NCBI GenBank assembly: GCA_037447655.1
Contig: JBBHKE010001855.1
Coordinates: 1 to 64,000, forward strand
From: Zygnema cylindricum
Lineage: Eukaryota; Streptophyta; Zygnematophyceae; Zygnematales; Zygnemataceae
Reading direction: 5' to 3'
DNA length: 64,000 nt
Shown here: one piece after another, positions 42,590 to 64,000 of the stretch
Layout: each line of letters opens with the position of its first letter
Numbering within the stretch: position 1 is the stretch's first letter
Position numbers and translations under genes: made by a program
Notes under the pieces: generated by a model
What the model was told of the DNA's origin: nothing
The model's database searches: none
What the model saw: only the letters and a program-made list of their open reading frames with translations

Positions 42590-42668
<79 letters not shown>

Positions 42669-42670
42669 AG
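42590..42670 (+). repeat. (TA)n/(TG)n microsatellite inside the protease region of element C
   Basis: About 33 TA dinucleotides followed by TG repeats replace the codons after the DSGAS triad. The frame stays open, giving an alternating Ile-Tyr tract before the CREKPLFTKMRKIP continuation. Confidence 0.9.
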
Positions 42671-45600
42671 AGAAAAACCATTGTTTACCAAAATGAGAAA
42701 GATCCCTACTGTAGAGATAGACTATGGGGATGGGAGAATAGTGACCAATAATTCAGTGGGATTAGTGGATCTAAGAGTCTTAGTTGATGGTAAGACATCT
42801 ATAGTCACTTTCTATGATGTTCTTTTACTTCCAGAGTTGAACAAGAATCTTATCTCTACGTCGGTCTTAGATGATAAGGGTTTTAAGACTAGTACTAGGA
42901 AAGGAGTCTTTGTTGCTAGCTATGAGAATGAAGTGTACTTCACAGCTGAAAAGGGTAGCCAATGAATGTTTAGGCTGATTTTGAGTAATGGAAAGACATA
43001 AGTTTACTATGCTGGTGTAAGTGATTTGATGATATGGCATAAAACATTGGGACATGTGCATCTAGATAGATTAAAGAAAATGAAGAAGATGGGTGTAGTT
43101 CAAGGAATACATTTTGGTGATAGTGAGACTTTGGATGATTGTAGTGGGTGTGCTCAAAGAAAGGCCCACAGATTGCCTTTTCCGAAAGCCGCAACATATA
43201 AGGGTGAAAAGGTCTTGGATTTAGTTCATACTGACATATGGGGACCGGCCAAAGTGCCATAAGTTGGAGGGAAAAATTATATGCTTACTATTACTGATGA
43301 TGATTGGTCTAGATACTCTAGAGTCTATTTCTTGAAAAACAAATCTGAGGCTTCGACTTATTTTAAGGAGTATAAAGCATGGAGTGAAAAGCTTCATGAG
43401 ACACCTATAAAGAGAGTAAAGAGTGAAAATGGGGGAGAATTCACTACTAATGAATTTGAGGATTACTTCAAAGAGGAAGGGGTTCAACACCAAAAGACTG
43501 TCCCAAAGAACCCAAAACAAAATGGTGTAGTCGAGAGACTTAATCGGACATTAAGTGATAGTGCTCGTAGTATGTTGATAGATAAAAAGATAAAGAAAAG
43601 TTTTTGGGCAAAGGCTATGAATTGTGCTAACTATCTCAAAAATAGAGTGCTTACCTCGGCCATAAAAGGCCAAACACTTAATGAAAGATGGACCAGGAGA
43701 AAACCTAATATTTCACACTTAAAGGTGTTTGGAAGTCAAGTGTTTAGTATAAACATAGAAAAATCTAATTCGAAGTTAGATGCTAGATGAAAGTCGGGAT
43801 ACTTTCTTGGGTATGATGAAAATGTAAAGGGGTATAGAGTTTATGATCTCGGAAGAGAAGACATAATTCTAGCAAAACACTTGGTAGCCATGGAAGAAGG
43901 AAAATCCATAGATCCCTTTAAGTACACTAAACCGGTCAAAATTAGAATTCAATCAGAAAATGAGTTAGATTCAAATTCTTCTAACCGAACTCCCGTTCAG
44001 CATGACCTTGCAGAGGAAGAGAAAAATCTGACAGAGAGTGATCCTCTCTTAGAGACACTACTTCCTATTCAAACCGAAGATAGACAGGAAATAGATGATG
44101 AACGTCCGGAGATGGACTCCACGGATAGGGGAGAAGATGAAGTCGTTCCGAGAAATCTGAGATTGCCCTCCATCCCAGCATCAAAATTTGAAAGAGGAAA
44201 GAGAAGTAACAAGAGACTTCAAGAGAGGCAAGTGAACAAAAAGGTAACTAAGATGTCACATTTTAGCGAAACCCCAAACTTACTCAGAGGACACTCATTA
44301 AGTAGTAGATGGGTGACACTCATTAATGTTGAGATGGCTTCCATTATGGAAGCAAACACATGGGAGATGGTGGATTGTCCTCCGGATATAAAGCCGATAG
44401 GATGTAAGTGGGTATTTAAGTTGAAACTCAACCCGGATAACATCATTGAGCGATATAAAGCCAGATTAGTGGCAAAGGGGTTCACACAGAAGGAGGGAAT
44501 TGATTATGATGAGACCTTCGCTCCGGTTGTTAGATTTCCCTCCGTCCAGATTCTACTTAGTCTAGCAGCAGCGGAAGACATCAAAGTGCACCAGATGGAC
44601 CTCAAAACCGTTTTTTTACACAGGGAAATAGAATAAGAGATCTTCATGCGACAACCGGAAGGATTTGTTTAGAAGGGAGAAGAAAGTAAGGTGTGCAGAT
44701 TGATAAAATCTCTTTATAGACTAAAGCAAGCTCCACGTCAATGGAACAAAAAGTTGGACGAGTTTTTGAAGAGTTTGCGATATATCCAAATCAGTTCGGA
44801 TCATTCCATCTATCTATTTGAGGATGAGGAAGGTATAATTTTCATTGCTATCTATGTGGATTATTTGCTTGTTTTGAGTAAATCAATGGTGAAAATTAAT
44901 AGGCTGAAAAAGGATCTAAAGAGTAGATTTGAAATGAAACACTTGGGAGAGGCAAAGTACATTTTGGGAATTCAGATGGAAAGAGATAGAGAGAAGAAAA
45001 CAATTAGACTAACTCAAAATGAAGCAATAGGGAATATGCTTGAAAAACTTCAGATGGATAAAGCAAAAAGTTGTACGACTCCCATGGACTTAAAGAAGGG
45101 TAATGAGGGGTGCTCAGAAGAGGGAGTCTTGATCTTGGATAATGAGTTAGGACAAGAGGAAAGCAAGTTCATGCAAACTATTCCGTACAGACAGGTTGTC
45201 GGTAGTTTGATCTATTTTATGAACTGTACTCGTCCTGATATTGCAGCAGCTGTGGGAGTATTAAGTAGGAGTCTGAATGATCCTAGGAAGAAAGATTGGG
45301 AAGCGGCCAAAAGGGTCATGCGGTACTTGATAGGAACAAGAGATTTGTGGTTGCATTTGGGAGGGGATAATACTGACATCACCACTTGGAGTGATGCCAG
45401 TTATGGGGATGCTCCGATGAGAAGGTGTACTTCTGGGTATGTGTTGTATGTTGGGAATGGGGCTTGCTGTTGGAGCAGCAAGCAACAAAAGGTGATTGCT
45501 CAGTCCACCATGGAGGCTGAGTATATGGCCTCTTGTTCGGCTGTGAAAGAATTGATGTGGGTGAAATCTTTGCTTCAAGAACTGGGATATATGAAGAGTG

Positions 45601-45847
45601 GAGTGCAAAAGATATTTTGTGACAATCAAGCTGCGATTGCAATTGCAGCAAATCCTAAGCATCACTTTAAAGCAAAGCATATGGATATTCGGATGAGCTT
45701 TGTTAGAGAGAAAGTTGAGAATAAAATAATTAGTTTGAAATATAGACCGGATAGAGAGATGGTAGCAGATATGATGACTAAGCCAGTTCCTTCTCCCAAA
45801 TTAGCTTTTTGTAGGGAGAAGTGTGGACTGAAAGAAAAGATAGACTA

Positions 45848-45861
45848 GAAAATAAGGGGAG
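45848..45861 (+). other. Element C polypurine tract
   Basis: GAAAATAAGGGGAG lies between the Pol stop codon and the TG of the 3' LTR, the usual plus-strand priming site. Confidence 0.75.
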
Positions 45862-46960
45862 TGTTGAAAAATGATATTTTGTATTCTACCTTTTTGTTTA
45901 GTCTTGCAGTTCTCATACTTGTCGTAGTCACTGAGAATTGACAGGCAGCCATGGCTACCTTAGACAGATGAGAAGATATACAGAAGACAAAGCTCCTGCA
46001 AAAGTTTTATTGACACAGCCAAGATTTGATCCTGAAACCTCTTGACATAGGCCGTACGGAATAGGCGTCCGCTTTATCCGTTACGTCTTTGATGATTCGT
46101 TGCATAGAGTACGTTTAATAATTATATAAAATATACATGGCGACATTTTTCCTTTTAGCGACTTACAAAATGAAACGAAACATAGAACGTGTGGTACTGT
46201 ACGAAATGCAGTACCGCACGAAATAAATGAAACAGACATTTGATTTCGACGGACGAAATTGAATGTCGCGATCAACGGCTCGCGAAGCAAGAAGAAAATT
46301 TAAACGGTCAACAAGGAATGTTGACCGTCGAAATTCAACGGTCAACACGGAAATTCGACCAGTGATTCGGCGCGCCGTCAGATCGAACGGCTGAAATTGA
46401 TCACGGTGAAAAGAACGGACGGCACGTGTGAGTGCCGGTATTGCTGGAACGACTATCTGGGAGAAGTTCGGCGAAATGGAAGGAAATGGCACGTGGCATC
46501 ATCCTATAGGATGCCGGAAGAGAAAAGGGACAGAATGCTATTGACCTATTTTTGCCACGTGGCAGACCAGGAATGGTGCCGAATATATCCTTACATAAAG
46601 TACGGCGGCTGCTGTACTTTATATGTACACTAATTAGGATACTTCACGTTGATTCGTTTAGAGTAGCTATTAGGAGTTTTCTAGGACTTAGGCAAAATTT
46701 GAAAAAGTCCTCCCTTTCAGAGGCCATCTGTAAAAATATGTTGTCTTTAACAGCCATAACTTAATGCTCGGGTGAGCAAATTCAGTGATTCTTTTTGCTG
46801 CGGACTCAGGGGAGTCCAGGCTACACATCGGTGTAGTCGGTAAGAGTTTTTGCGTGTCAGGGTGGCACTTATTCATTGCCAAAGTCAAAACTGCAAATAT
46901 TATCCTAGAGGCTTCATATAAGCTGGACATTTTGTGGACCAATGGAGGTCACAAATTTCA
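45862..46960 (+). repeat. Element C 3' LTR
   Basis: Starts TGTTGAAAAATGATATTTTG and ends GGTCACAAATTTCA. It contains the near-palindrome GGCAGCCATGGCTACC near 45945 and the hairpin GGACTCAGGGGAGTCC near 46804. Confidence 0.88.
46018..46090 (-). promoter_or_regulatory. Antisense tRNA-like module in C 3' LTR
   Basis: On the minus strand GACGTAACGGATAAAGCGGA (A-box side) and CAGGATCAAATCTTGG (T-arm and B-box side). Confidence 0.55.
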
Positions 46961-47815: not shown

Positions 47816-49389
47816 AAAAATTTTTATTTAACAAGGGTGAAGCTGTAATGGAGTTCTGTTTGTCGAGGGGTCAATCATTTAGGTTTATATAAACTTGGAG
47901 TCGGCACTACAGTGGGCCATTTTACGGATTTTTCAACTTTAAGTGATATGGCATTAAAGCCTTGAGACCCTTGCAAACTAAAATTTGTATAAAAAGTATA
48001 TGGTGCAAGCGGACATAAAGAAATAACAGTGTGTTTTTTTTCATCGTCAGAACCTTTCGAATAATTCAGAAACTTGCGAATCTATTTTTTTATTTGTGGA
48101 GCGGTGCTACTTGTCAAGCTCGCGTGCATTCTAGGCACATTTATACTCGTAGGATTTTCGGGGCCTAATTCCACCATGTACAAACCCCAGCGTACAGGGA
48201 AGGGGAGGACAACCAACCGAATCAGATCATCGTATTTTAACCTAAGAGCACAACGCACTTTGGTAAACCTCAAACGGAGGTCTAACGGCGGAGCTAGTCC
48301 GTTGCAACGGTGGAGGCTCCATGACATGGCATTTGTCCTATGCAGCTATAGCGGAGGGGTACATTTTAGAAAGTCACGTAACCTTTGGGATTTTCATGTA
48401 GATTCTGATGTTAGCCGTCAGTAGGATGTTAGTTCAGGCCCAACAGACGGGCAGAGCATTTATGACGTTGGGTCAAAATAGGCAGTTTCACTTCAATTCA
48501 GGACTTTGTTGCCCATTAGTGTACCATAAAAGCACCTTTGCATGCAAATCCACCCGGAACCAGTCGCCTAACTTTTTGCCTTGAGTTTAGTACAGCATGT
48601 TTTGTATTATGTCACTACGATAACAATTGTTGGCCGCTGATTGGCTTTTGGGATTGCTTTGACTTTGGCACAGGACAAACCTTGGTTGTATAAGGCACTT
48701 GGGGTTGAAGGAGACAAAGCTTCTTGAGTACTATCTCCTAAAAAAAACCCCAGAGAATCCAATCAATCTTTCTCTTGGAAAACTGTTGCATTATATCGTG
48801 GACTCTATTGCCATTTTTGTTTTGGATTGTCTTTTGTGGAAATCATAGCTCGGGTGGGTGGTTGGCATTATCCTCTCTTTTGGCGGTTTAGACTTTCGCT
48901 ATTTGAAACTGAGAAGAGTTTGGTCGGATCCATAGGGCGAAACCGAGGGGTGAGGGAGAATCATATCTGTCTTCGGGGCAATTGGGAGAGGTTTCATCTT
49001 TTGAGATTTGTCATCGTTGCACTCCGGGGTATGTGAGCTTGCTTCACCATTTTCATTGATTTCTATCTTTATTTTTATACTCTAGGGCAAGGTGATAGTG
49101 TTTAATATGAAAGAGCAGATTTTTATTGTTTATATATTTTTCCGCGGGAGGTATTTCCGCACTGTTGTGGTCGTCCATAGATCTTGTCTGGAGTTCTTGT
49201 CGGCCGGATTTGACGACCCGCAATCCCTTTTCTATTTTTTGGAGAGTGCTCAAGGGTGTAGCATTTAGTTGGCTTCAAGTGGATTAGCACAGTACTGAAA
49301 AAGCCACATGCCCCCTTTGGTTAAAGAGGATAGGTGCTTAGGGTGGGGTACTTTCATAAAGGGATTTAGCTCCTCTATTGCGGTCAGTT
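47816..49389 (+). other. Presumed leader/LTR of the Gag-bearing element at 49390
   Basis: No gene is supported. A TATA-like GTTGTATAAGGC lies near 48686, and a T-rich leader runs toward the Gag start. Because no second copy of this LTR is in the window, its borders and primer site could not be set. The 116-codon frame at 48074-48424 has no recognisable family. Confidence 0.35.
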
Positions 49390-52153
49390 ATGGGAGGAGA
49401 AGAGGTTCAGGTTAGGGATCTTTCAGGTGTCAGTCCGGAAGAGCAGGAAAGGCAAGAAGCAGTGGCACAAGAGGAAGAGTCACAGGTGCCCGAGGAAGTA
49501 GTCACGTTGGCCTCAACATTAAACATAGAGCAGTTTTTTAAGGGAATGATGCGTGAGGATGTTACAGCTGAGACTCCTCCGAAACAGCCAGTGAGGCAAC
49601 CCTCTCCTCCACCTCCGCCTTTCTTTTCTCCCAAGAACTTTCCTACGTTGTCCGAGGCTGTTAGGGTTTGGGCCGCGGAGAAGATTGAGAGACCGACGTT
49701 ATCTCCTAAATCACGTAGGAAGGGTTTGGCCCATAAGGAAGCGGTCCGTGGTCACCCTCTCGAGGTAGGGCGATATACAAGATCTAAGGTTGCGATGGCT
49801 GAGATGTACATGGATCCTAAAATTTTGGCATATCCTAACTAACCAGGTCGCAAGGAAATCTTAGCCTTCACAATCTCCATGAGTTTAAGGTTTAGAAGAA
49901 GTGGGTGCAGCGAGATGCCAGAATAGACGGAGCCAATATCATACGCCCAGTGGGAGGTGTAGTGGAAATACTGAGCACTTGGTCCGAGAGCGACTCTTCA
50001 ACCTGAGTCCGAAGCAACAGGGGATGCCATCAACTTCACACCAACAGCCCATTCAATCTTAGGACACTTCAACCAATAAACCGTTTAGGGGCAGGGCGAC
50101 TTCTCAGGCCTGGGTGGGGAAGGAACAAGGAAGCGGAGGTTACTTGACCCCAAAAGAGTGCACCGGCTCGACCATCGAGACAGCAAAGGCAGGTTTGCTC
50201 TCCGACCTAAAGAGGAGTCGTTCTCCCCTTCCGCCTCAGTCTCTCCGAGCTCTTTGCCTCCATCAACACCGGTTGTTCAACCATCCGAAAGGTTGTGGCG
50301 TTCGAGACCCACAGACCCCGAGGTACCGCGTTTGGGGATTGTGGATCTCTTTGGTGTGGTGAGCAGCACACAGAAACTGGTTGATATCATGCGCTCGCAG
50401 AATAAGGCTACGGCGGAGGCCGGACCCGTCACTATAGACAAAGAGGCTCTTGAGAGGAAAGGAAGAAGGCACTGGAGCACGAATTGCTCCTCATTCGAGA
50501 GGCTAGACAGAGATCAGAGGGACCCTTAGTCGAAAAAGTAGCTCCTCCTCGTAGGACAAGTTCCTATGCTGGGGGACAACCTCAAGGTCAGGCAACTCCT
50601 CCTGTTACGCAAGCTCCAAGGACTTCATTGGGACCTAGACCAGAACCTCCTCTTCAGCGGGAAGGGGAGGAAACAAAAGGGCATAACGGAGAGGGGTTGG
50701 GTGTAGATCTACTAGGTAACTTGGCAACCGCTTCCACTGTGAGTCTTACCTTTGTCTTAGTGGTGGGATTTTCCACTTTGGAGGTCGTGGTGCAACTACA
50801 ACCGGACCGGAGACTACAAATTTCCCTTAGACTGTCCACTCCTCCACCATCACCACCTCACGCCTCCTCTCTTTCACCATCCCTTTCTCCCGATACAGCA
50901 TTCCGTGGGTCACCAGACTCGCCTGTTTTACCCTACAAATACGTCCCCGCCTACTCACCTCCTCTCAGGCGCTCCCCATCTTCTGGCTCACGAACTCCTC
51001 CTCCCGAGACCTCTAGAAGGCGGCCTAGGAGACAGACACCTTTCCCTCAAAGCCCCCAGTCATCTCCATCTTCGCCACCATCGATTTCCCAAGGACCTTT
51101 CAACAGACCTCGTCTCCAAATCCCATTGTTGGAGACAACTCTCACGGAGGAACAAGCATCTCCTCGATATAGAGGAGTAGACACTCAGACCTTTTCTTCA
51201 ATAGCAAGACCTTTCTCAATAGGGAAGGGAACCAATGCTGTTGATACCGCCCTTCCTATTGGAGGAGGGACTGGTTCGGATCTCGAGATTTCAAATTCCG
51301 GGGAAATCTCACTGGCTCAGTTTGTCAGCCCCACCAAACAGGCATCACCATGGTTCACCAGTCTTATTGAGGAAGAAAGGAGAATCGGGGACATCCGGAT
51401 CTTCACAAAAGACAACTCGGCAATTGGTTTTAATGATTATGAGCTGTTGTGGAAATCTTTCACGCATTTCGAAATTGACAAATGCAGGGGAGGGGCCATC
51501 CAAGGAGATTTCGAGGCAACTCTTTTTCCTATGATGGTCAACTATCTAGTCGGAGGGGCTTATGCTGACTATAAGGAGAGTCAACCCTTCTTGATGGCTA
51601 CTAGCATCAAAATGTCAGATCCGGTTTTGGACGACGAAACCCTTCAAGCAGCAGTCGCACAGCAGCCGCAGCAGTTACTGTCACCTCCACTTTCACTATG
51701 GACATGAAACTACAAGCCCAAGGTAGGGCCTATGTCAACCATCTACAGGCCGTACAAGCTGCCGAGGAAGGCACCCGGATGGTTGCCAACCCAACTCCTT
51801 GCACCACTCTTCTCGACGCAGGGAGACTCCTTTATATAGAAAGGAACGAAACTGCTATCAAGAAGTTCACGAAATTCCAATGTTTGAAAAATGAAACTCC
51901 GCAGACGTTGTTCAACCGCCTCTGAAGCATCTGTCATAAAAAACCAAGTTATCTACAATTGATACCCCAACAATGGCCACAAATACTATGTCGCTGTTAG
52001 GAATTCATTCGAGCCAACAGGACAGGCAGCTCTAGACAATTGGAGTGCCAGTCAAGCTATCCACGGCAAAAACCCCACGGCGCAAGAAATTTCATTGGCT
52101 GCCATGAAGTTTTATGATCATTTTGTACAGAACGAGGCGAGGGAAAAGGTTTT
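49390..52153 (+). pseudogene. Gag of a non-Copia (probably Ty3/gypsy-like) LTR element
   Basis: It starts MGGEEVQVRDLSGVSPEEQE and runs through Pro/Ser/Arg-rich linkers (PPSPPHASSLSPSL, RRPRRQTPFPQSP) to a globular C-terminal part. That part includes WFTSLIEEERRIGDIR, FEATLFPMMVNYLVGGAYAD and KFTKFQCLKNETPQTLFNRL, which fit a capsid-like helical domain. Further on, DNWSASQAIHGKNPT leads up to the insertion of element F. Frames change near 50465, 51690 and after 51925, with stops near 49840, 50080 and 51925. It is very likely the Gag of the same element whose protease and methyltransferase lie at 59474-61890 (inference from position and orientation). Confidence 0.65.
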
Positions 52154-52893
52154 TGTTGTTTTTAGAAAGCTTTAGTCCTCTTTATGCCTCAGCTGTGAGA
52201 GAGAGAGCTGTTCAGGACTTAAGCTATTTTTGGTTGAGTTCGGTTCAGTACTTACCGAAATTAGTGTGACAGTGAAGTTGGGAGTTCACGGTTCATTCAC
52301 ACTTGGGACACGTGTCGTCACTTGGGAGAATGCGTGAATATGTCCTCCGTGGACGTACGGAAATTCGGCAGGACCACTGGACTTCGTGAAGTCAATTCTA
52401 CGGTGCCAAATCCTCTAATCGGACCGCTGACAGCCGCCGCCAACAAATAGTGACGAGGCGTGACTAGATCATTATCACTTTACGTTGTCTGAACTTCGGT
52501 GTAAATATTTGTGATAGAATGTTAGATGTACGGCTGGAATGCCTCCGTACAGCTTAGTGTAGTTTCGGTGTATAAAAGTAGGACTTAGTGAATTTGATTT
52601 TTAGGAACAAATGATATGAAAACTGTACACTCAGTTTTATGTAATTTCATTTCTACATATCTCACAGATTTGTGAGCGGAATTGATTGAAATTTTGTGTG
52701 TGTGTTCCTTTGTATGTAATCTACATTGTGGCAAATTTTCAGGACGTTTGGAGCGTTTTTCTGAAAGTTATAGTCTGTCAAAGTTGCTGTTCAGCCATCG
52801 GTATTTGTGGAAGCTTCCTCTCTTGATTTGTTCTACGATGACTACTGCTGCATCTTCTTCATCTTCAGTACCAACACTTGTCTCAGAACAACA
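52154..52893 (+). repeat. Element F 5' LTR
   Basis: Starts TGTTGTTTTTAGAAAGC and ends CAGAACAACA before the primer site; 740 bp. A TATAAAAG box lies near 52571. The Gag ATG (52838) lies 56 bp before the LTR end. Confidence 0.8.
52569..52578 (+). promoter_or_regulatory. TATA box in element F LTR
   Basis: GTATAAAAGT precedes the presumed transcription start by the usual spacing. It is the only strong TATA box in this LTR. Confidence 0.55.
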
Positions 52894-55800
52894 GGTCACG
52901 GGCCCGCCTTCACGAATTCCGGTCTTTGATGGACGTGAATATCTATATTGGGCAGATTTGGTTAAGTCTTACTTCAAGCAAGTGAAACTTATTGATGTGT
53001 TAAATGGATCATTGGCAGAATCTGATGCCAGTTTTGATCAGAAAAATGACCAGGCTTTGCATTTAGTAAAGCTTATGATATCAAAAGAATTGCATATGAC
53101 ATATATTAATGTTGCAAAGGCATCAGATTTGTGGGATGCATTGAAATCTTCTTATGTTAAAGCTAGTGACCAGCATGAGATTATAACTGCTGGTCAAATC
53201 TATGAGTATAAGTACACAGGTGGTAGCATGGTGGAATACACTAATCGGTTTCGAATGTTACTGTCAGAAAATGCATGTTCTGGGGGGACTTTCTCCCCTT
53301 ATCATCAGGCCATGATTCTCCTAAAGGGGCTTCCTAATGAATATAAAGGAGCCTCAGATGAAATGAAAAAATTGTCTAAACCTCTTTGGAATTTGCAAAC
53401 AGCTATAGAGTTTATCTTGGCAGAAGAGGCTACTCAGACAGTTTTAGGATTTGGAAAACCAGCTGTAGCATTTACGGCTCAGTTTCAGAGGGAAAATAGA
53501 TATCAAGGGAATCAGTTTAATCCTCAGTTTGAGAAATGTGTTTATTGCTATACTGATGGTCACTCCTTCAGAGCTTGTCCTTTGTATATAAAAGCTCTTG
53601 AAACAGGTACCTTTCGGAAAGGATGGAGACACCGCGGACCTCCCATTTCCCAAAAACCTCCGAATAAAATTGTTGCATTTTCAGCGGAGGATACGGAATT
53701 GGAGAAGAAAAAGACCGAGGAAACGACACCTGATGTGATCAGTTTTCCAAAAACTGATGACAAAGAGTTCTTTGCTCTCGCCAAACTCGACATGATGGAA
53801 GGAGAAAAGGACCTCGGATGGATAATGGATTCCGGCAGCTCTTCACACATGTGTTGGAACAAGTCTTGGTTTAAGGAAATGTCTTCTATTCCTTTACGTC
53901 AGATCTTTTATGCTTGTGGCTATGCTGTTGAATCAAATGCCAAAGGAAACATAGATCTCGATTGTGTGATAGATGGAAAGGTTGTTAAGAGAACTTTGTA
54001 TGATGTCTTGTATGTTCCAAAGTTCAAGAAAAATCTGTTTTCTACGTCAGTAGCTGAAAGCAAAGGCTTTGAGGTTCTCCAGAAAAATGGCAAGAAAATA
54101 GTGAGCAAGAATGGAAGAGTAGCTCTAGTAGGAACTAGAGGCCCAAACTTTTTGTACCGCATGGACCTGGCTAATAAAATTGATTTTGCGTACTCCAGTG
54201 TCCTATGTGATAATGTTTTGTGGCATAAAAGGCTTGGTCATGTGCACCATGAGAGACTTACTAAGATGATAAACCATAATATGATAGAGGGAGTCAAGCT
54301 TGGTCAAAAAGAGTCCCATGTTTGTGATGGTTGTGCTCTCGGAAAGCTTCACAAGCTTCCTCTACCACAAGTTTTTGATCATCGAGCCACAGATCTCCTT
54401 GGTATTATTCACTCTGATGTCTTCGGCCCTTCCAAAGTTCCCTCTCTTGGTAGCAGCCGCTTCTTTGTCACCTTTACAGACGATTACTCCCGATATAGTC
54501 GCCTATACTTCATGAAGGAGAAGGGAGAAGTCTTCACTCACTTTAAGCACTACAAAATCTGGGCGGAGAAACTTCACGGCAAATCTATTCTTGCTTTGCG
54601 AACGGATAATGGTGGAGAGTATGTATCTCATGCATTTGCTGATTTTTTGAAAGAGAATGGCATCTCTCGTGAATTTACTGCTCCGTACACACCGGAACAA
54701 AATGGTGTTGCCGAGAGACTTAATCGGACTTTGACTGAATGTGCTCGATCTATGATGGCCGATAAAGGTGTGGATCCAAAGTTTTGGGGGGAAGCTTTTC
54801 ATTGTGCTTCTTATATCAGAAATAGAGTGGAAACCCGGGCTGTTAGGGGTAAGACACCTTATGAAGTTTGGACAGGCAAAAAGCCAAATGTTAGTCATTT
54901 TAGAGTTTTTGGTAGCAAATGTTTTATCTTGGATAATCTTCCTAATTGGAAGCTTAGTCCAAAATCTGTACCTGGCGTCTTTTTAGGCTATGATGATGAA
55001 TCTGCAGGTTATAGAGTGTATAATCCTCAGAGAGGATGTCTTCAAACAGCCAGGAATATTCAGATTAAAGAAGAAAGTCAATCTGTTGATGTTTTTAGCA
55101 TGGATGCAGCTGAAAGGAAAGAGAAAATACAAGAGTATATCATTCTTGAGCAGGTACCTTTTACTCCATCCTCTTCTACTTCTTCTACCTCTCTCCCAAA
55201 TGCCTCTAGGCCGTCTAATACTCCTTCTGTCGATGCTCCTCCGAATACACGCCTTGTGCGGCAATCTAAGGAACCAACCGTTCCCGCGTCAGATTTTCCG
55301 GGGGGAAGAAGGCAAAGTAGCCGCCTTCGAGGCGACCGAGTTGAGAGTGCTTTTTCTACAAGCACAGGGGAGCCGCTTACTATTCATGAAGCTTTTTCCG
55401 TTCCTGAAAAGGATCATTGGATCTCGGCTGCAAATGAAGAGATAAAGTCAATTATGGAAGCCCAAACTTGGGAACTTGTGGAGCTCCCACCGAACAGGAA
55501 AGCTATCGGTTGTAAGTGGGTCTTCAAATTAAAATTGAATCCTGATAATACAATTGAGAGATATAAAGCTAGACTGGTTGCTAAGGGATTTAGCCAAAAG
55601 GAGGGAATTGACTATGAAGAGACCTTCTCTCCTGTGGTTCGCTTTCCTACTGTTAGAGTTTTGCTATCTCTTGCCGCAATAGAAGATATGGAATTGCATC
55701 AGATGGATGTTAAGACAGCTTTCTTGCATGGTGATTTGGAGGAAGTAATTTATATGAAGCAGCCAGAGATGTATGCAGAAAAAGGGAAAGAAAATCTGGT

Positions 55801-56947
55801 CTGTAAACTGTTGAAGTCCCTTTATGGTCTGAAACAGGCTCCGAGGCAATGGAACCTGAAATTAGATGAGTTTTTAACCAATCTAGGCTTTACCAGGATC
55901 AGTTCAGATCACTCAGTCTATGTAATGCAAGGTGATGATGGAGTGATTTATGTGGCAGTTTATGTAGATGATTTGCTACTAATTAGCAAATCCATCAATG
56001 AGATTAATAAAATAAAATCAGCTTTGAATTCCCGGTTTGAAATGAAAGACTTGGGTGAGGCTAAGTATATTCTAGGAATTCAAGTAGAAAGAGACAGGAA
56101 ACAGAAAATTATTTATTTAACTCAAAAGGAAGCAATCAAGAACATGTTAGAAAAGTTTGGCATGTCGGACGCAAAGGGGAGTGCCACTCCTATGGAATTC
56201 AGGCAGAAATTGGAAGGCACGGAAACGGATGGTGGTGTTTTGGTTGATGGTTTCTTAGATTCAGGGGAGGCAGATTCTATGTCCTCCATTCCTTACAGGC
56301 AGATTGTCGGAAGCCTCATTTATTTCATGAATTGTACTCGTCCCGACATCGCAGCAGCGGTTGGAGCCTTAAGCCGAAGCCTTCAGAATCCAAGGAAATC
56401 AGACTATGAGGCAGCAAAGAGAGTTCTTCGTTATCTTGCAGGAACTCAAAATCTTAGACTCTCTCTCGGTGGAGAGGAAGTCAAAATTCATACATGGAGC
56501 GATGCGAGCTACGGAGATATGCCGAGCCGACGCTCCACCACCGGATACATTTTGAAGATCGGAAGTGGAACTTGCTGCTGGAGCAGCAAACTTCAGAAGG
56601 TAACGGCTCAGTCTACCATGGAGGCTGAGTACATGGCTGCTAGCTCGGCAGTTAAAGAGTTACTTTGGGTAAAGTCTCTTCTCCAAGAGCTTCTCTTTAT
56701 GCAATCTGGACCACAGATAGTGTGGTGTGATAATCAGGCAGCAATCGCTATTGCATCTAATCCCAGTCATCACTTTAAGAGTAAGCACATTGATATCAAG
56801 CTACACTTTGTAAGAGAAAAGGTGATGGGAAAAGTCTTGAAGTTGAGTTATTTACCGAATGAGCAAATGGTGGCTGATATGATGACGAAACCCTTACCTG
56901 CTCCCAAATTGAAGTTTTGTAGAGAGGCATGTGGACTGAGTGACTAG
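52838..56947 (+). CDS. Element F Gag-Pol polyprotein (Ty1/Copia), intact, 1369 residues
   Basis: A single frame encodes all Copia domains. Gag has an LYWADLVKSYF start region and a CCHC knuckle CVYCYTDGHSFRAC (residues about 234-247). Protease has MDSGSSSHMC (about 330). Integrase has an HHCC domain (LWHKRLGHVHH...CDGC) and a DD35E core with HSD, TDNGGEY and NGVAERLNRT, with exactly 35 residues between the second Asp and Glu. RT has KWVFKLKLNPDNTIERYKAR, MDVKTAFLHG, KQAPRQWN and YVDD at about 1042. RNase H has TWSDASYGD, STMEAEYMA, CDNQAAIA and ADMMTKPLPAPK. ATG 52838 is chosen over upstream in-frame TTG because relatives start there. All catalytic residues I can check are present. There is no frameshift or stop between Gag and Pol, so their ratio must be set in another way. 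Confidence 0.95.
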   Translation: MTTAASSSSSVPTLVSEQQVTGPPSRIPVFDGREYLYWADLVKSYFKQVKLIDVLNGSLAESDASFDQKNDQALHLVKLMISKELHMTYINVAKASDLWDALKSSYVKASDQHEIITAGQIYEYKYTGGSMVEYTNRFRMLLSENACSGGTFSPYHQAMILLKGLPNEYKGASDEMKKLSKPLWNLQTAIEFILAEEATQTVLGFGKPAVAFTAQFQRENRYQGNQFNPQFEKCVYCYTDGHSFRACPLYIKALETGTFRKGWRHRGPPISQKPPNKIVAFSAEDTELEKKKTEETTPDVISFPKTDDKEFFALAKLDMMEGEKDLGWIMDSGSSSHMCWNKSWFKEMSSIPLRQIFYACGYAVESNAKGNIDLDCVIDGKVVKRTLYDVLYVPKFKKNLFSTSVAESKGFEVLQKNGKKIVSKNGRVALVGTRGPNFLYRMDLANKIDFAYSSVLCDNVLWHKRLGHVHHERLTKMINHNMIEGVKLGQKESHVCDGCALGKLHKLPLPQVFDHRATDLLGIIHSDVFGPSKVPSLGSSRFFVTFTDDYSRYSRLYFMKEKGEVFTHFKHYKIWAEKLHGKSILALRTDNGGEYVSHAFADFLKENGISREFTAPYTPEQNGVAERLNRTLTECARSMMADKGVDPKFWGEAFHCASYIRNRVETRAVRGKTPYEVWTGKKPNVSHFRVFGSKCFILDNLPNWKLSPKSVPGVFLGYDDESAGYRVYNPQRGCLQTARNIQIKEESQSVDVFSMDAAERKEKIQEYIILEQVPFTPSSSTSSTSLPNASRPSNTPSVDAPPNTRLVRQSKEPTVPASDFPGGRRQSSRLRGDRVESAFSTSTGEPLTIHEAFSVPEKDHWISAANEEIKSIMEAQTWELVELPPNRKAIGCKWVFKLKLNPDNTIERYKARLVAKGFSQKEGIDYEETFSPVVRFPTVRVLLSLAAIEDMELHQMDVKTAFLHGDLEEVIYMKQPEMYAEKGKENLVCKLLKSLYGLKQAPRQWNLKLDEFLTNLGFTRISSDHSVYVMQGDDGVIYVAVYVDDLLLISKSINEINKIKSALNSRFEMKDLGEAKYILGIQVERDRKQKIIYLTQKEAIKNMLEKFGMSDAKGSATPMEFRQKLEGTETDGGVLVDGFLDSGEADSMSSIPYRQIVGSLIYFMNCTRPDIAAAVGALSRSLQNPRKSDYEAAKRVLRYLAGTQNLRLSLGGEEVKIHTWSDASYGDMPSRRSTTGYILKIGSGTCCWSSKLQKVTAQSTMEAEYMAASSAVKELLWVKSLLQELLFMQSGPQIVWCDNQAAIAIASNPSHHFKSKHIDIKLHFVREKVMGKVLKLSYLPNEQMVADMMTKPLPAPKLKFCREACGLSD
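52894..52908 (+). other. Element F primer-binding site, inside the Gag frame
   Basis: GGTCACGGGCCCGCC follows the LTR end. It matches the half tRNA-iMet site GGTTATGGGCCC with two changes and encodes VTGPP within Gag. Confidence 0.5.
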
Positions 56948-56955
56948 CAGAGTCT

Positions 56956-56970
56956 AAAGCTTTAGGGGAG
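56956..56970 (+). other. Element F polypurine tract
   Basis: The GGGGAG run just before the TG of the 3' LTR (within AAAGCTTTAGGGGAG) lies 9 bp after the Pol stop codon. Confidence 0.7.
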
Positions 56971-57231
56971 TGTTGTTTTTAGAAAGCTTTAGTCCTCTTT
57001 ATGCCTCAGCTGTGAGAGAGAGAGCTGTTCAGGACTTAAGCTATTTTTGGTTGAGTTCGGTTCAGTACTTACCGAAATTAGTGTGACAGTGAAGTTGGGA
57101 GTTCACGGTTCATTCACACTTGGGACACGTGTCGTCACTTGGGAGAATGCGTGAATATGTCCTCCGTGGACGTACGGAAATTCGGCAGGACCACTGGACT
57201 TCGTGAAGTCAATTCTACGGTGCCAAATCCT
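56971..57231 (+). repeat. Element F 3' LTR fragment (first 261 of 740 bp)
   Basis: Identical to 52154-52414 as far as it goes. It stops at TGCCAAATCCT, after which element D sequence begins with no repeat or spacer. Confidence 0.9.
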
Positions 57232-58446
57232 TCTTATCTTAGTGAACAGGTGCCTATCCTTACACATGTGCATGGAGGCACCTGAATCTATGATCCAGCC
57301 TGCTTCACCTTTCAATCCACCGTAAGCACATTTCTGCCTTCGTGGAATTTCGACCTCGTTTTTCGCCTCCAATTCCTCATCCAAAAGGAGCACATCGTCC
57401 TCATCCTCGGATTCCACCTCATATACCTGTGTCACAAGGGCCTTTTTCTTTCCTCTCGAGGTACCACCGGTCTGCCCGTCCTTTAGCCGAAGCTCGGTTA
57501 GCTTAGTGCACTCTGCCATATAGTTCCCCGGTTTCTTACAAAAATGACATAAACCTTTGTGAGCCCTTTGTCCGAACTCGTCGGCCTGATTTTTCTGCTC
57601 CCTTCCCCCATAGTTTCCGACCAGTTTCCGAGAATCCTTGTTCCTCCTATCGGTCAAAGTTGCCAAGGCTCGGCCACTCTTTCCTCCCTTTTTGATCTCA
57701 ATCGTATTCTTCCGAACGAGAATCATCCCTACCACTGAGTTCCATATCCACCTTGAGTCCGGCAAGTCCTACACGCGATTGACTATGTTCTCGAACTCAT
57801 CGGGGAACTTCATCAGTAAATAGTTAACCTTTTCTTTTTCACTAAAATCTTTTCCCGCACTCTCCAGCTCCATGAAGAGTGTAGCAAGCTCATTGCAAAA
57901 ATCCAACATTTTCCCCCCTTTGTATACAAATTCCTTTACTTTCTGATCAGCCAACTGTTGTTGCTGAATCGTACCACTTCGGTACATCTCTATAAGAGCC
58001 ATCCACAGATCGGATGCCCTTTCTACATGCAAATGAGGACATGCAAGTCCTTGAGTAAGATGGTGAAGGATGAAGTGCTTTGCTGCCATATTGTTGAAAT
58101 CCCAGGTTTGAGTATCATTCTCCTTGTTCCTCGGAATAGGTGACATGAATGTTGAACTGGTTGCTATTGGTGTGGTCGTCTCCTTCTCCGCTCCATTGTC
58201 CACCACCTCTCCTTCCTTTATCTCCTCCGTTGAAGATGGACCTGCTTTCTTTGTGAATCTGCTTCCTTCAAACCCTGGAGGAATTTTGAGACTTGATGGA
58301 CGCCCCAATCTTCCACTCACTATCCCCCATAACATTTTTTCGCTTAGAGCTCCTATCATCATACTTTCCCAGTATATGAAGCCAGTTCCATTAAATATTG
58401 GTACCTTAGAGGGTGGGCCCATAACCCAAAACTCTGAGACCTCCAT
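57232..58446 (-). pseudogene. Element D: Copia Gag and start of protease, minus strand, truncated
   Basis: Start codon at 58446-58444 (MEVSEFWVMGPPSKVPIFNG), inside the LTR. The Gag is otherwise well preserved, with a frame break near 57768. The knuckle is CHFCKKPGNYMAEC with Asn in place of His. Protease reads GWIIDSGASMHMCKD and ends abruptly at LFTKIRRI, where the element F LTR fragment begins. Integrase, RT and RNase H are absent. Closely related to elements B and C. Confidence 0.85.
58411..58426 (-). other. Element D primer-binding site (half tRNA-iMet type)
   Basis: Minus strand GGTTATGGGCCCACCC. The first 13 bases are complementary to the initiator tRNA-Met sequence TGGGCCCATAACC around the anticodon. 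It lies inside the Gag frame. Confidence 0.65.
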
Positions 58447-59473
58447 AAGTCCTCATAGGGGACAGCTTCCAAGAAGCCTCTAGGATAACCCTGACCCCTT
58501 TGTGTTTCATCAAGAACAACTGCCACCCTGACAGACAAAAACTCTGACTAACGTCAACCCTGTGAAGGCAAGACTCCCTTGAATCGATAGCAAAAATAAT
58601 CTCTGAATTTGCTCCCCTGAGCAATAAGTTATGGAGGGTCAAAGTTGGCCATTTGTACAGAAGCTCTTTGGGAGAGAGGGTCCTATCTCCTAATTTTTCT
58701 AAGTCCTTTCGCTTTCACAGACTCTATCTACTGATGTACGGAGCCAATTAGATTACTCCTTGTCGGTATACTTTCTGTACGGACATTGTACGACATGGCG
58801 TAAAAGTCGACACGTGGTATCTCCGGATTGACTCCCTTAATCCTCGGAGATGTCGCGATCCAATGTCATTCCGCCACGTGTCATCCGATGTGGCGATGAT
58901 CAAAAACCGCCAAAATTATCTTCCGCTATCTCGGCGTTGAATTTCGACCGTCCGACTAAATTTACAATTAATCCTAGTCGTAATAAATACATGTCCGGTG
59001 TTCGTTTCGTAAAGAAATAAATGCGCGGTATTTGTTTCTTATACGTACCCTAATCCGTACTTTTACATTACTATATCTATGTCTCCCGTAAAACTATTTC
59101 AGTTAAATGAACTATCCTACGTATTAGTGTTTAATTAATTATCAATCCCTATAATACGTAACACTATCTCTAGACTTAACGGTTAGAGCTACCACCTACC
59201 GGCTGATTACCGGCCGGCAAGTTCCAGGATCAAATCTTGGATGCGGCACATATATTTTAGTAAATATATTCTAAATTATTAATAAACTAATATTTATATC
59301 CCGTAAACCTCTGGATAGCCTAGGTAGCCATGGCTCTAGCTTCCTCTCCAATTTCTCAGTGACTACGACAAGTTTGAGAGTTGGAGAGAGAAGTTAGAGG
59401 TAGACTGCCTCAACTTCTTTCTATATTTCTATTCAGACCTAGAAAATACTTTAAAAGACCATTAATTTCTACA
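58427..59473 (-). repeat. Element D 5' LTR
   Basis: On the minus strand it starts TGTAGAAATTAATGGTC and ends CTCAGAGTTTTG (the usual CA end is lost). The left 55 bp are specific to this copy; from 58482 onward it is duplicated at 61990-62997. Its right neighbour is the protease-bearing element. Confidence 0.8.
59172..59248 (+). promoter_or_regulatory. Antisense tRNA-like module in element D LTR
   Basis: CTTAACGGTTAGAGCTACC is an A-box/D-arm match. CCAGGATCAAATCTTGG forms a T stem and B box. Antisense to element D. Confidence 0.6.
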
Positions 59474-60638
59474 ACGATGACCTCACGGGTTGCGATATGG
59501 AGCCTCCAAAGGCTCATCATGCTCGAACATTTCTGTCTGGAGCCTGGAACATCGGAGTAGGGGACAGTCGCAGGAAACTCCGCTCTACCACATCCTCACA
59601 GAGAAAGGACAAACAGCTGATGGAACCAAAAGACCACAGCCGCAAGCCACAGGCCCTTTATCCTTCAAACCGCGAGCTATCTTTCAAAATAGTGACATTA
59701 GGCTGGGCCCAAAACTGACCCATCCGCCTCCTCCGGCTCTAAAGAAACTTCTTTATGGTTTAGAGGATTACAAGAAACCACAGCCGGAAAAGGATGCTTT
59801 GACCGCTGAAATAGATAAAGAATCGTTCAACCGATACTTGGCTGAAAAACCACTAACAGATCCACCAATTACACCTTCAACTAGGAATTCTGACGCAGAG
59901 AGTGAGGAAGAAGGGGGTAAGAAAAAGGAGAAATCGGAAGACGAGAACTCACCCATTTCATCGCCAAAAGCTCACCCTCCTTCCTCTCAACCGGCAGTTA
60001 TGCTAGTACGACATCTGATTCCCTACGCCCTGACTCATGTCACAACGCTAGCTTCCTTCTACAATTTGCCCGGAGAAATCCTCATCCAGGCACTGGGGGA
60101 AGAGATTCACACCAGGAGGGAAAGGGTCGCGTTGGCAGAACTACCCAAGACAGTCTTCATGTTGGCGAAAACGAAAACGTCTATGGCGGATACAGATTAT
60201 AAGGCCCCGTCGGTGGCTCTTATTCTTAACACAACAGGTAATTTTAAACTTAATGGATACGGCAGGTATCAAGATGTAGTGGTGGTTACCGGAGCCCTCC
60301 CTAATCTTATAACAATATCAGCGTTATAGCAAATGCCCAAGGAATTCAGGCAAAAAATCAGTCTAAGTGACATATGCCTGAGTACGGTCAGCAGTGGGAG
60401 CCAACCAGTATATGGCATCATTAAAGTAATGGAAATCGAATTTGCGGATGACACAAGCCAACACGTACAAATTCAGCTCCCTTTCCTCGTGGTGGAAGGA
60501 AAGAAATTTGAAATTATGTTGGGTATGGCTACGTGGACAAGGTTGAACATGGAGTTGAATATATGGAAGGAACAATTTACATTTCCACACCCGGAGGATC
60601 CGAAGAGCACCAAAGTGGTGGTTCCTTTGGATTTATGA
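59474..60638 (+). pseudogene. Retropepsin-like region of the methyltransferase-bearing LTR element, copy 1
   Basis: After a degraded start (TSRVAIWSLQRLIMLEHFC) comes a Pro/Ser/acidic linker. A conserved block MLVRHLIPYALTHVTTLASF follows, and then a protease-like fold: VVVTGALPNLIT in the place of the D-T/S-G-A active site, a flap-like GIIKVMEIEF, QLPFLVVEGKKFEIMLGMAT near the C-terminal ILG motif, and a final VVVPLDL. The catalytic Asp is replaced by Val (GTT). An in-frame TAG (60327-60329) splits the region, and an earlier frameshift lies near 59560. The second copy at 62998-64000 has the same Val and TAG. Confidence 0.65.
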
Positions 60639-61890
60639 AACTGGGGGAAAACAACTTTTCCGGTGTCTAGATGCTATCTTGTGTACTCTGCATCAACGCC
60701 TTCGGAGCTGTTCGAAGACTCCACCGTTATCGCTGATTCCATCTAGCAATTCCCAATATCCAAGCGGTGGGAAATAAAGTGTCAAAACAGATTGGTACAA
60801 GCCACACTTCGATGGGAAGTGGACAAGAGCTTTGCCGCCATATCACCCAAGAAAACAAAGTTCATCCAGTCAGAACTTCCAACAGTTCTTAACAAAGGGT
60901 AGGACTTCAACTGAAAAGTGATGTCACTAGAGATCCCGCCCTCAAGACTAAGAATTCTATCGTTATTCTTGTGCATTAGTTCCAACTTGGAAGCCGTCCT
61001 AATAGTTGGATACCAAGTAGAAACATACTCAGCAGTCGAGATTGACTCAGACGCCCGTGTAGTCAATGAGTATCGAATGCAACAGCTGCACCAACTTTAC
61101 CCACAGCAACTCTCGGTGTTTGCCATGTCTAACTCTCACCGCACGCTTCCCCAGAATGTGTACAACATCATGGATTCACATTTGGAGAAGCTTGGAATGG
61201 TAGATCTAGTGGTCGCTAGATGGCCTTGCCAGGGGTATTCGTTAGCGGGACAAGGCAAAGGACACCAGAATGTCAGTAGCATAACATTTTTTCAGATGAC
61301 TCGAGTGATACCAGGGTTACAAGAACGCTAGGACACACCTGTGGGGTGCGTTTTGGAAAATGTTCACCCCACATATGATAAAAGGAAACAAGTGGTCAAA
61401 TTAGAACGAAGTGACCAAGGATCTGGGAACTCCAATAGTGTTTGATACAGCTCAGATCGGATTAAGAGCCCACAGAGTTCGGGTTTATTGGACCAACTTC
61501 GTTCCTCTTCCCATCCTCCACCAGCTGTTGAAAACAAAGGTTCCGGATCCAAACATCACATTTTAACGGATTCTCAGACCAGGGCGAATGGCTATCCTGT
61601 GACCACAGCCGACCGAGCACCCTTTTTCTGTTGCAATAAATCCGGAAATACAGGGAAGGCCCTACAAACCTGGTATCTTTCCATAACAGCCATGCTTATC
61701 GGAAAGGTGTACCAGGGATGATCTTTCACAGTACGCCCGCTACGTGAAAACACTAAGTATTAAGGAACGCGAACGAACAATGGGATTTTGACCGGCAACC
61801 ACAACAGCACCAAGGGTCTCAGCCTCAAATAGGTGCAGTTTAATTTGGAAACGTATGGATTTGAATGCAATTTCATGGGTATTGCAACAA
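60639..61890 (+). pseudogene. C5 cytosine DNA methyltransferase domain of an LTR retroelement (decayed)
   Basis: C5-methyltransferases transfer a methyl group from S-adenosylmethionine to cytosine through a Cys in motif IV. Visible motifs in family order are: motif I ILSLFLCISSNLEAV (about 60950); motif II AVEIDSDARVV (about 61037); motif IV VDLVVARWPCQGYSLAG with the catalytic PCQ (about 61205); motif VI CVLENVHP (61345); motif VIII FDTAQIGLRAHRVRVYWTN (about 61440, shifted frame); a C-terminal HILTDSQTRAN...APFFC block; and motifs IX/X SIKERERTMGF and RMDLNAISWVLQQF (about 61765-61885). An open linker (KFIQSELPTVLNKG) connects it to the protease. At least four stops and two frameshifts are present. 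The motif order is canonical, not the rearranged order of plant DRM enzymes. Confidence 0.8.
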
Positions 61891-61989
61891 TTTGAGGCAT
61901 TCTCCAGCCTCTTGTCTCCAAAATCATAGACAAAATACCTTGAAGCTCCACAGTTGTTGGCCATGCAAGCGACTCTAAAGCTTGAGGGG
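61891..61989 (+). other. Tail of the methyltransferase fragment and duplication breakpoint
   Basis: The sequence after motif X (QATLKLEG) runs without a stop into the truncated D-type LTR at 61990. No reverse transcriptase or integrase is seen in this unit. Confidence 0.5.
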
Positions 61990-62997
61990 AGGATAACCCT
62001 ACCCTTTGTGTTTCAGCAAAAACAACTGCCACCCTGACAGATAAAAACTCTGACCAACTTCACCTTGTGAAGGTAAGACTCCCTTGAGTCGATAGCAAAA
62101 AAAATCTCTGAATTTGCTCCCCTGAGTAGTAAATTAGGGAGGGTCAAAGTTGACATTTTGTATAGAAGCTCTCTGGGAGAGAGGGTCGTATCTCCTAATT
62201 TTTCTAAGTTCTATCTCTCTCACAGACTCTATCTATTGATGTACGGAGCCAATCAGATTACTCCTCCGTACACAAAAGTACAACTGTCAGTGTACTTTCT
62301 GTACGGAAATTGTACGACATGGCCTAAATGTCGACACGTGGTATCTCCGAATTGGCTCCCTTAATCCTCGGAGATGCCGCGATCCAATGTCATTCCGCCA
62401 CGTGTCATCTGATATGGCGATGATCAAAAACCGCAGAAATTCTCTTCCGCGATCTCGACGTTGAATTTCGGCCGTCCGACTAAATTTACATTTAATCGTA
62501 GCCGTAATAAATTCATGCCCGGTATTCGTTTCGTAAAGAAATAAATGCGCGGTATTCGTTTCTTATACGTACCGTAATCCGTGCTTTTACATTACTGGAT
62601 CTATGTCTCACGTAAAACTATTTACGTTAAATGAACTATGCTACGTATTAGTAATTAATTAATTATCAATCCCTATAATACGTAACACTATCTCTAGACT
62701 TAACGGTTAGAGCTACCACCTACCGGCTGATTACCAGCCGACAAGTTCCAGGATCAAATCTTGGAGGCGGCACATATATTTTAGTAAATATATTCTAAAT
62801 TATAAATAAACTAATATTTATATCCCGTAAACCTCTGGATAGCCTAGGTAGCCATGGCTCTAGCTCCCTCTCCAATTTCTCAGTGATTGCGACAAGTTTG
62901 AGAGTTGGAGAGAGAAGTTAGAGGTAGACTGCCTCGGCTTCTTTCTATATTTCTATTCAGACCTAGAAAAGACTTTAAAAGACCATTAATTTCTACA
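61990..62997 (-). repeat. D-type LTR, second copy (U5 end missing)
   Basis: Aligns with 58482-59473 with scattered substitutions and small indels, and ends with the same TTAATTTCTACA. The first 55 bp of the element D LTR, including the Gag start and primer site, are absent. Confidence 0.85.
62696..62772 (+). promoter_or_regulatory. Antisense tRNA-like module in second D-type LTR
   Basis: TTAACGGTTAGAGCTACC and CCAGGATCAAATCTTGG as in 59172-59248, with a few changes between the boxes. Confidence 0.6.
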
Positions 62998-64000
62998 ATG
63001 ATGACCTCACGGGTTGCGATATGGAGCCTCCAAAGGCTCATCATGCTCGAACATTTCTGTCTGGAGCCTGAGAACGTCAGGGAGGTAGGGGGGACAGTCG
63101 CAGGCAACTCCGCTCTACCACATCCTCACAGAGAAAGGACAAACAGCTGATGGAACCAAAGGACCACAGCCGCAAGCCACAAGCCCTTTATCCTTCAAAC
63201 CGCGAGCTATCTTTCAAAATAGTGACATTAGGCTGGGCCCAAATCTGACCCATCCGCCTCCTCCGGCTCTAAGAAACTTCCTTATGCTTTAGAGGATTAC
63301 AAGAAACCACAGCCGGAAAAGGATGCTTCGACCGCTGAAATAGATAAAGAATGGTTCGACCGATACTTGGCTAAAAAACCACTAACAGATCCACTAATTA
63401 CACCTTCAACAAGGAATTTTGACGCAGAGAGTGAGGAAAAAGGGGGTAAGAAAAAGGAGAAATCGGAAGACGAGGACTCACCCATTTCATCTCCCAAAGC
63501 TCACCCTCCTTCCTCTCAACCAGTAGTTATGCTAGTACGGCATCTGATTCCCTACGCCCTGACTCACGTCACAACGCTAACTTCCTTCTACAATTTGCCC
63601 GGAGAAATCCTCATCCAGGCACTGGGGGAAGAGATTCACACCAGGAGGGAAAGGGTCGCGTTGGCAGAACTACCCAAGACAGTCTTCATGTTGGCGAAAA
63701 CAAAAACGACTATGGCGGATACAGATTATAAGACCCTGTCGGTGGCTCTTATTCTTAACAAGACAGGTAATTTTAAACTTAATAAATACGGCAGGTATCA
63801 AGATGTAGTGGTGGTTACCGGAGCTCTCCCTAACCTTATAACAATATCAGCATTATAGCAAATGCCCAAGGAATTCAGGCAAAAAATCAGTCTAAGTGAC
63901 ATATGCCTGAGTACGGTCAGCAGTGGGAGCCAACCAGTATATGGCATCATTAAAGTAATGGAAATCGAATTTGCGGATGACACAAGCCAACACGTACAAA
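62998..64000 (+). pseudogene. Retropepsin-like region, copy 2, running off the window
   Basis: Close copy of 59474-60471, with the same MLVRHLIPYALTHVTTL block, VVVTGALPNLIT and TAG (63856-63858). Small indels near 63075 and 63275 differ from copy 1. Any protease C terminus and methyltransferase of this unit would lie beyond 64000. Confidence 0.8.

Follow-up and report, generated by a model that had tools for sequence, protein, structure and literature searches.

Why retroelements that are silenced by methylation carry an enzyme that methylates is treated as an open question in the available sections of PMC5890265, and the locus analyzed here raises it for one particular element. A first-pass annotation of the window, i.e., the whole 64,000-nucleotide stretch of DNA under analysis, which is the first 64000 bases of contig C1392, had placed the motifs of a C5-methyltransferase, in the right order, directly behind a retropepsin-like domain, and had taken both to belong to one decayed retroelement. 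We ask whether the enzyme is part of the element, what kind of element this is, how often such elements have acquired the domain, and what it may do for them.

The methyltransferase is real and not a chance resemblance. ORF 60915-61331 matched Pfam DNA_methylase (PF00145) at 21.7 bits, just below the family cut-off of 22 (E-value in Table 1), and reading the three frames by eye recovered the motifs with their order kept, motif I from ~60954, then motif II, motif IV (PCQ) at 61224-61232, motif VI (ENV) at 61356-61364, motif VIII at ~61450-61497, and motifs IX and X at ~61757-61880. The open Pol frame of a relative in the same genome (L034) aligned with 60747-61989 across several frames, and the stops in the two aligned pieces of the window copy (2 and 5), together with frameshifts, bear out the decay that had been claimed. 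The best PDB matches were to DNMT3A (1.9e-14, vs about 5e-5 for M.HhaI), and motif VIII reads AHRxRxxWxN as it does in DNMT3A; the window copy is thus a broken DNMT3-type cytosine methyltransferase (DNMT) directly after a retropepsin-like domain. The originally annotated interval, 60639-61890, starts slightly early, homology to the DNMT-bearing Pol beginning at ~60747, and the neighboring protease is part of the same element. The longer stretch 59481-61988 matched at least 40 scored places in the same genome, including itself and a tandem copy (97%), the other 38 at 79-84% identity.

The methyltransferase belongs to one Ty3/gypsy-type element at 48112-70664 of the contig, with the 4-bp target duplication TACT on both flanks of the whole, interrupted by two copia insertions and one tandem duplication (Table 1). 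Its terminal repeats come in two parts, A and B: A1 (48112-49291) and A2 (69274-70462, beyond the window) are 86% identical (K2P 0.149), and B1 (69072-69271) and B2 (70464-70664) 89% identical. From 65729 onward come the parts for RT, RNase H, and integrase, and B1-A2-B2 occupies 69072-70664 (L031, L046). The two nested copia elements separate the Gag remnant from Pol, and the "Pro-rich Gag" of the first-pass annotation (59481-60000) proved to belong to the N terminus of the protease ORF; the real Gag remnant lies at 50622-52157. Its 716-aa counterpart in L034 had no match in Pfam and is called Gag by position and by two zinc-knuckle-like motifs seen by eye. The L034 protease ORF matched Asp_protease_2 at 2.1e-4 (22.3 bits, below the cut-off of 24.3), and the window protease reads V-T-G-A where L034 and a further relative in the genome (L035) read D-T-G-A. 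The Ty3/gypsy Pol order RVT_1, RNase H, DDE integrase was found in the L034 frame and, by homology, in the window copy, and we are nearly certain that the window element adds a new member to an already known kind (KnitGypsy-Dnmt3), one with a broken Ty3/gypsy-type Pol.

Table 1 Features of the DNMT element and its interruptions within the window
Feature	Position	Strand	Details
Terminal repeat A1 of DNMT element	48112..49291	+	Starts TGTCAAGC; 5' TACT ends at 48111
Gag remnant of DNMT element	50622..52157	+	547 aligned columns at 49% aa identity with the 716-aa L034 open frame that precedes the protease
Later copia insertion, not part of DNMT element	52154..57231	+	Open 1423-aa ORF 52676-56947; LTRs identical over 261 bp
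Second copia insertion (remnant)	57103..59468	-	Gag-like ORFs 58452-57103; LTR about 58430-59468
Pol start: proline-rich stretch and retropepsin-like protease (59940-60743)	59481..60743	+	79% aa identity to the L034 protease ORF
Decayed DNMT3-type cytosine methyltransferase region	60747..61989	+	PF00145 E = 1.5e-4; tblastn with L034 Pol residues 1-417
Tandem copy of copia LTR piece (58482-59480)	61990..63004	-	91% identity
Tandem copy of protease-DNMT piece	63005..64000	+	Continues to 65511 in L031; 97.5% to 59481-61988

That the methyltransferase is a host gene fragment beside the element, as the lack of an RT between DNMT and the next repeat in the window copy alone might suggest, is already refuted and next to impossible, since RT-RNase H-integrase homology resumes from 65729 beyond the tandem copies, DNMT and RT share one frame in open copies, and the relatives with long open frames are intron-free and sit in repeat-flanked elements, where a host DNMT gene would have introns and no repeat context. 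Two smaller candidates were rejected as well. A short non-autonomous element of the form LTR-protease-DNMT-LTR (58482-61989) fails on its repeat, which is a reverse-oriented copia LTR, and on the RT that follows from 65729; and AAGCTTGAGGGGAGGA before 61990, a candidate polypurine tract, matches L034 coding sequence (LKLEGG).

The insertions and the duplication give the locus a relative chronology. The intact copia element (52154-57231) is a very recent insertion. The TG end of the second copia LTR adjoins DNMT-element sequence, with DNMT-element homology back at 59476, and the LTR-like repeat at 58482 and 61990 is related to the reverse-oriented copia LTRs of the window and was caught up in the tandem duplication. 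The tandem units, each a copia LTR plus the protease-DNMT piece, span 58482-61989 and 61990-65511 and are followed by a 218-bp LTR bit (65513-65730, L031) that resembles the second LTR piece at 98.6% and the first at 91.3%. The distance between units is 0.022 for the protease-DNMT pieces and 0.074 for the LTR pieces (58482-59480 vs 61990-63004), and because these differ the duplication was not one simple event; conversion, or recombinational replacement of the first LTR, may be the cause. By these distances the DNMT element is old (A1/A2 0.149), with the duplication following later (0.022 for the DNMT piece) and the intact copia element last (0). Within the copia LTR, a stretch at 59180-59245 and 62690-62755 is by eye similar to tRNA-derived DNA, with a B-box-like GATCAAATC; ARAGORN called no tRNA at either place.

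Relatives in the same genome establish what the window copy has lost. PF00145 matched at least 123 scored places, 6 of the 123 in frames of at least 1000 aa with the match free of stops, so the family is widespread and partly intact, and its partnership with DNMT looks like a lasting family feature rather than a one-off accident. In L034 a single frame holds DNMT, RT, RNase H, integrase, and a weakly matching PHD, and L035 has the same set by homology; ahead of the Pol frame are a protease frame and the frame called Gag. A third relative (L033) runs from a Gag-like part through RNase H in one frame, with integrase and PHD in an overlapping frame, and the copy on C1344 (L015; L032, L052) is one frame of 2395 aa. 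In open copies the DNMT3-type methyltransferase lies inside the Pol frame. The host of these elements is green and probably a streptophyte: its genome has 88 light-harvesting matches, and for one of them the best PDB matches among single-domain chains (8htu_U and 7xqp_a, 463 bits, from a moss) outscore 6kac_Y (403 bits, from Chlamydomonas). No match came from searching for matK or for the RuBisCO large subunit, the matK search giving none in its controls either.

The retroelement context proposed for the locus holds, and the word "LTR" does not, because the repeats are split in the order A-coding-B-A-B. This form, with A only at the 5' end and B-A-B at the 3' end instead of the complete LTR at both ends of a standard Ty3/gypsy element, was found in four of the six copies with both ends read (C1392, C1344, C449, and C829). 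No two of these four share similar A repeats, so they represent four families; all have the outer ends TGTC...GACA, and two bases separate B1 from A2, GC in three elements and AC in that of the window. The A repeats are 100% identical over 931 bp in the C1344 copy, 99.6% identical in the C829 copy, and 80% identical in the C449 copy, which retains 3 of 4 bp of its target duplication, and exact 4-bp duplications bound three copies (TACT on C1392, TTGG on C1344, and AAGG on C829). As a separate observation, L052 2737-4154 (C1344:94737-96154) has B-GC-A-B split repeats, a DDE integrase, and target duplications of 4 bp. Could the split repeats instead be decay products of an ordinary two-LTR gypsy element that had lost the end of its 5' LTR? 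Two copies (C1374 and C544) do end at B, lacking the second A-B and a target duplication, and a third (C1407) has B-A-B at its 3' end with no A1 within the 2.3 kb of upstream sequence covered (L051). We consider this very improbable, however, as the same split form occurs in the young copies with (nearly) identical A repeats, where the two-base gap is kept and exact duplications surround the whole, and four families with unlike A repeats agree on it. Where B meets A across two bases, the sequence resembles a circle junction, and a split-repeat element of this kind calls for a separate replication model. The tyrosine recombinase that marks DIRS elements was not found, the element having rve and H2C2 domains and 4-bp duplications; DIRS elements are not known to make a target duplication.

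Methyltransferase-carrying retroelements have been reported in dinoflagellates and charophyte algae, and the family is of a described kind. KnitGypsy-Dnmt3 of Klebsormidium nitens shares with it the gypsy domains, an intron-free DNMT3-type domain in Pol, DIRS-ordered repeats, and purifying selection on DNMT, and its legend speaks of a mixture of DIRS-like repeats and Gypsy domains (PMC5890265, available sections). The K. nitens protein P0035 falls among elements of the window's kind in both RT and DNMT trees, which points to common descent. The two differ in copy number (at least 123 PF00145 matches here, fewer in K. nitens than in Symbiodinium according to the same sections), in the Glu-Cys-Gln families of the clade, in the nested, duplicated, and broken state of the window copy, and in the PHD finger, a word absent from the main text of PMC5890265. 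SymbioDIRS-Dnmt3 of dinoflagellates likewise has a DNMT3-type domain beside RT in Pol and the order A-coding-B-A-B, but with a tyrosine recombinase where we find a DDE integrase (rve) and a 4-bp target duplication, and two Pol orders are described for the Symbiodinium DIRS elements; SymbioLINE-Dnmt is also a retroelement-borne DNMT, but a LINE with an orphan DNMT class rather than a gypsy element with a DNMT3-like one (PMC5890265, same sections). Chromoviruses are Ty3/gypsy elements with a chromatin-reading chromodomain behind the integrase of Pol; here a PHD finger takes its place, no chromodomain being found at E ≤ 0.01 in the L033 and L034 frames, and DNMT and split repeats are added. Some DNMT3s are known to be embedded in retrotransposons of streptophytes and dinoflagellates (PMC12344493, available part). 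The accessible portions of PMC5890265 and PMC12344493 mention neither Marchantia, Closterium, or Haematococcus DNMT elements nor a PHD finger, an ECQ variant, or two DNMT positions in gypsy Pol, and an exact-phrase search for DNMT retrotransposons in the open-licence literature returned PMC5890265 alone.

How many times, then, was the domain captured? A DNMT search returned 41 proteins at E ≤ 0.001, including Marchantia Mp_4g09160, Closterium NIES-53/54, and Klebsormidium KFL_009030040, and revealed two Pol architectures, with DNMT either before RT or between RNase H and integrase. This search selected on DNMT similarity and its frequencies are biased, unlike those of an RT search, which yielded 1871 proteins at E ≤ 1e-60; the best 120 of the 1871 were added to the earlier set for a 126-row RT tree (quick method, midpoint root). 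One branch (SH-aLRT 100) sets apart 102 rows that hold all 56 DNMT rows (30 before RT, 26 before integrase), together with 44 rows whose ORF was too short to score and 2 long ORFs without DNMT, and the remaining 24 rows comprise 18 without DNMT and 6 unscored. Proteins of Klebsormidium, Closterium, Marchantia, and Haematococcus all occur on the 102-row side. The K. nitens rows lie near the RNase H-integrase class on long branches, P0035 standing inside the 102-row side, as inside the DNMT trees, at an exact place that is weakly supported, and Haematococcus P0125 and P0126 belong to the integrase-side class with a DNMT remnant that has no readable motif IV. Given the 2 long DNMT-less ORFs within the clade, its elements may be able to do without the domain. 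We found no report of all DNMT rows falling on one side of a gypsy RT tree in the open-licence literature searched.

In the DNMT trees of 41 and 68 rows, where the classes of ORFs too short for every domain were assigned by hand (19 names), a single branch parts the two architectures (98/98 and 100/99), as it does in a 23-row RT tree (100/98), and rooting the DNMT tree on human DNMT3A, a very long branch with moderate support, nests the integrase-side class in the other. Excluded were P0042 and P0001 (trees), P0041, P0051, and P0129 (68-row DNMT tree; domain start missing or scrambled), DNMT fragments shorter than 230 aa (68-row DNMT tree), and proteins without a joined RT-RNase H stretch (RT trees). 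The spacing between motifs II and III is 36-38 residues in 64 of 75 rows, from both classes (33 in four rows, 0-16 in seven incomplete or odd rows), vs 20 in human DNMT3A, and the 17-residue insert absent from DNMT3A favors one capture. Several independent captures of host DNMT3s by gypsy elements, rather than one ancient capture, would fit the existence of two DNMT positions in Pol, the two DNMT-less long ORFs within the clade, the three changes that the before-RT rows need in the 126-row RT tree, and the integrase tree, which does not split the classes and also needs three changes (14 of 27 forks open). Such captures nevertheless seem rather unlikely to us given that a branch of the 126-row RT tree with SH-aLRT 100 gathers all 56 DNMT rows into one group of 102 (44 of the 102 not scorable), that the RNase H-integrase class is one group (98) in that tree, that both DNMT trees and the 23-row RT tree need one change of position, and that the two classes share the long motif II-III spacing. 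With moderate confidence, the trees and alignments suggest one capture and one move of DNMT within Pol.

Two further features mark the clade. The motif IV alignment has 76 rows, one of them human and 5 without letters at motif IV; among the 70 readable rows, near-copies counted, the cysteine is present in 69, and the motif reads ECQ in 39, PCQ in 25, PCE in 3, and SCE, PCV, and PYQ in one each. To our knowledge, Pro-Cys is otherwise nearly constant across C5-methyltransferases. The variants PCV, PCE, and SCE were seen in the DNMT retroelements P0094, P0131, P0137, P0154, and P0034. The second feature, a PHD pattern (our own regular expression) after the integrase, occurs in 56 of the 79 clade rows that reach far enough and, outside the clade, in 2 of the 24 outgroup rows; a further 15 clade rows end early and 8 have an ORF that lacks the integrase. 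The pattern is missing from the other 23 of the 79, including L034 and L035, and the PHD match of the window's family falls short of the cut-off (E = 0.0044). The nearest solved structures are of the CHD4, ATXR5, KMT2C/D, and KDM5 types for one of these PHD fingers and PHF12, KDM5/lid, BAZ2B, WSTF, and PHF21A for the other. Several of these types bind unmodified H3K4; which histone state the retroelement fingers read is a guess. We lean slightly toward regarding all these elements as one ancient green-lineage clade (streptophyte algae, a liverwort, a chlorophyte, and further contigs), with one DNMT3 capture, one move, a PHD finger of the unmodified-H3-reading kind, and a Glu-Cys-Gln site in more than half of the readable rows. 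If true, this would be a retrotransposon with its own chromatin reader and writer. Seen across the clade, the pattern recasts "recurrent acquisition" as a single capture kept over a long time, a proposition that can be tested, and it is the aspect that most deserves following.

The domain has been maintained. Over 13 informative pairs among 6 stop-free copies of the window's family (four distinct sequences; window copy itself excluded, two further pairs identical), DNMT dN/dS was 0.110-0.262, some pairs exceeding 0.2, and DNMT is under purifying selection in this family. RT values for those pairs among 9 copies that could be computed were 0.02-0.22 (dS saturated in some), and family B gave 0.214 within one pair, dS being saturated across subfamilies. 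The ratio of observed to expected CpG was 0.66 in the window DNMT piece, 0.63 in L034, 0.62 in L035, and 0.91 in the young L032, vs 0.60 in the adjoining DNMT-less copia and 1.1 over window positions 1-18000; as a test of self-methylation CpG depletion does not discriminate, the DNMT-less copia being equally depleted.

The best explanation overall, and one we hold to be reasonably probable from sequence comparison, is a Pol of the KnitGypsy-Dnmt3 kind whose DNMT would methylate CG sites of the element's own cDNA; the cDNA methylation step taken by itself is a tentative proposal that falls somewhat short of probable. The methyltransferase, made as part of Pol in open relatives, would enter the particle alongside the element's RNA and freshly made cDNA, a placement deduced from the fusion; CG sites of that cDNA would be methylated during or after reverse transcription, and the new copy would be marked already on entering the genome. 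The mark may conceal it from systems that sense unmethylated foreign DNA and limit harm to the host, and the choice of chromatin entered is probably guided in part by the PHD finger that follows the integrase. We favor methylation of the element's own cDNA because of the placing in Pol, the selection on the domain, and the yeast activity of DIRS-borne DNMT3s, those of dinoflagellate DIRS elements methylating CG in yeast (PMC5890265, available sections). Counting against self-methylation are the CpG depletion of DNMT-less copia and the K. nitens gypsy DNMT, for which no methylation was seen in yeast, a result its authors call inconclusive (PMC5890265, same sections), and what selection preserves could instead be RNA methylation or some non-catalytic function.

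The enzyme might alternatively act on a target other than the element's cDNA, i.e., host DNA at the integration site, rival elements that it represses, or the element itself, slowed to the host's benefit, and slower transposition is an option discussed by de Mendoza et al. (PMC5890265, available sections). The PHD pattern found after the integrase in most of the clade rows that reach far enough (56 of 79), and the chromatin-protein types, such as CHD4 and KDM5, that are the best solved matches of two PHD fingers, would suit this; a Pol-fused enzyme, however, would be expected with the cDNA rather than with host chromatin, and we judge a target of this sort unlikely. For the preferred role in cDNA methylation as for its alternatives, material for comparison is present in this genome in the form of several families, natural active-site variants, and open copies whose repeats are nearly identical, and DNMT-less copia elements adjoining the DNMT elements serve as controls.

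Elsewhere in the window, older related copia copies lie at 26680-27705, 31019-37482, and 39425-46960, with LTRs of about 1.05 kb (31019-32066 vs 36399-37482, 88.6%) and, by eye, the Gag start codon apparently inside the LTR. An uninterrupted host-like ORF of 1153 aa at 18493-21954 on the minus strand is without a Pfam domain, and its residues 560-1110 have one relative, a EukProt transcript (37%), among the best 8000 candidates scored. Finally, a tandem array at 13839-14358 repeats at about 68-bp spacing with units 78-89% alike, and 9648-10130 is a low-complexity run that is open in several frames.
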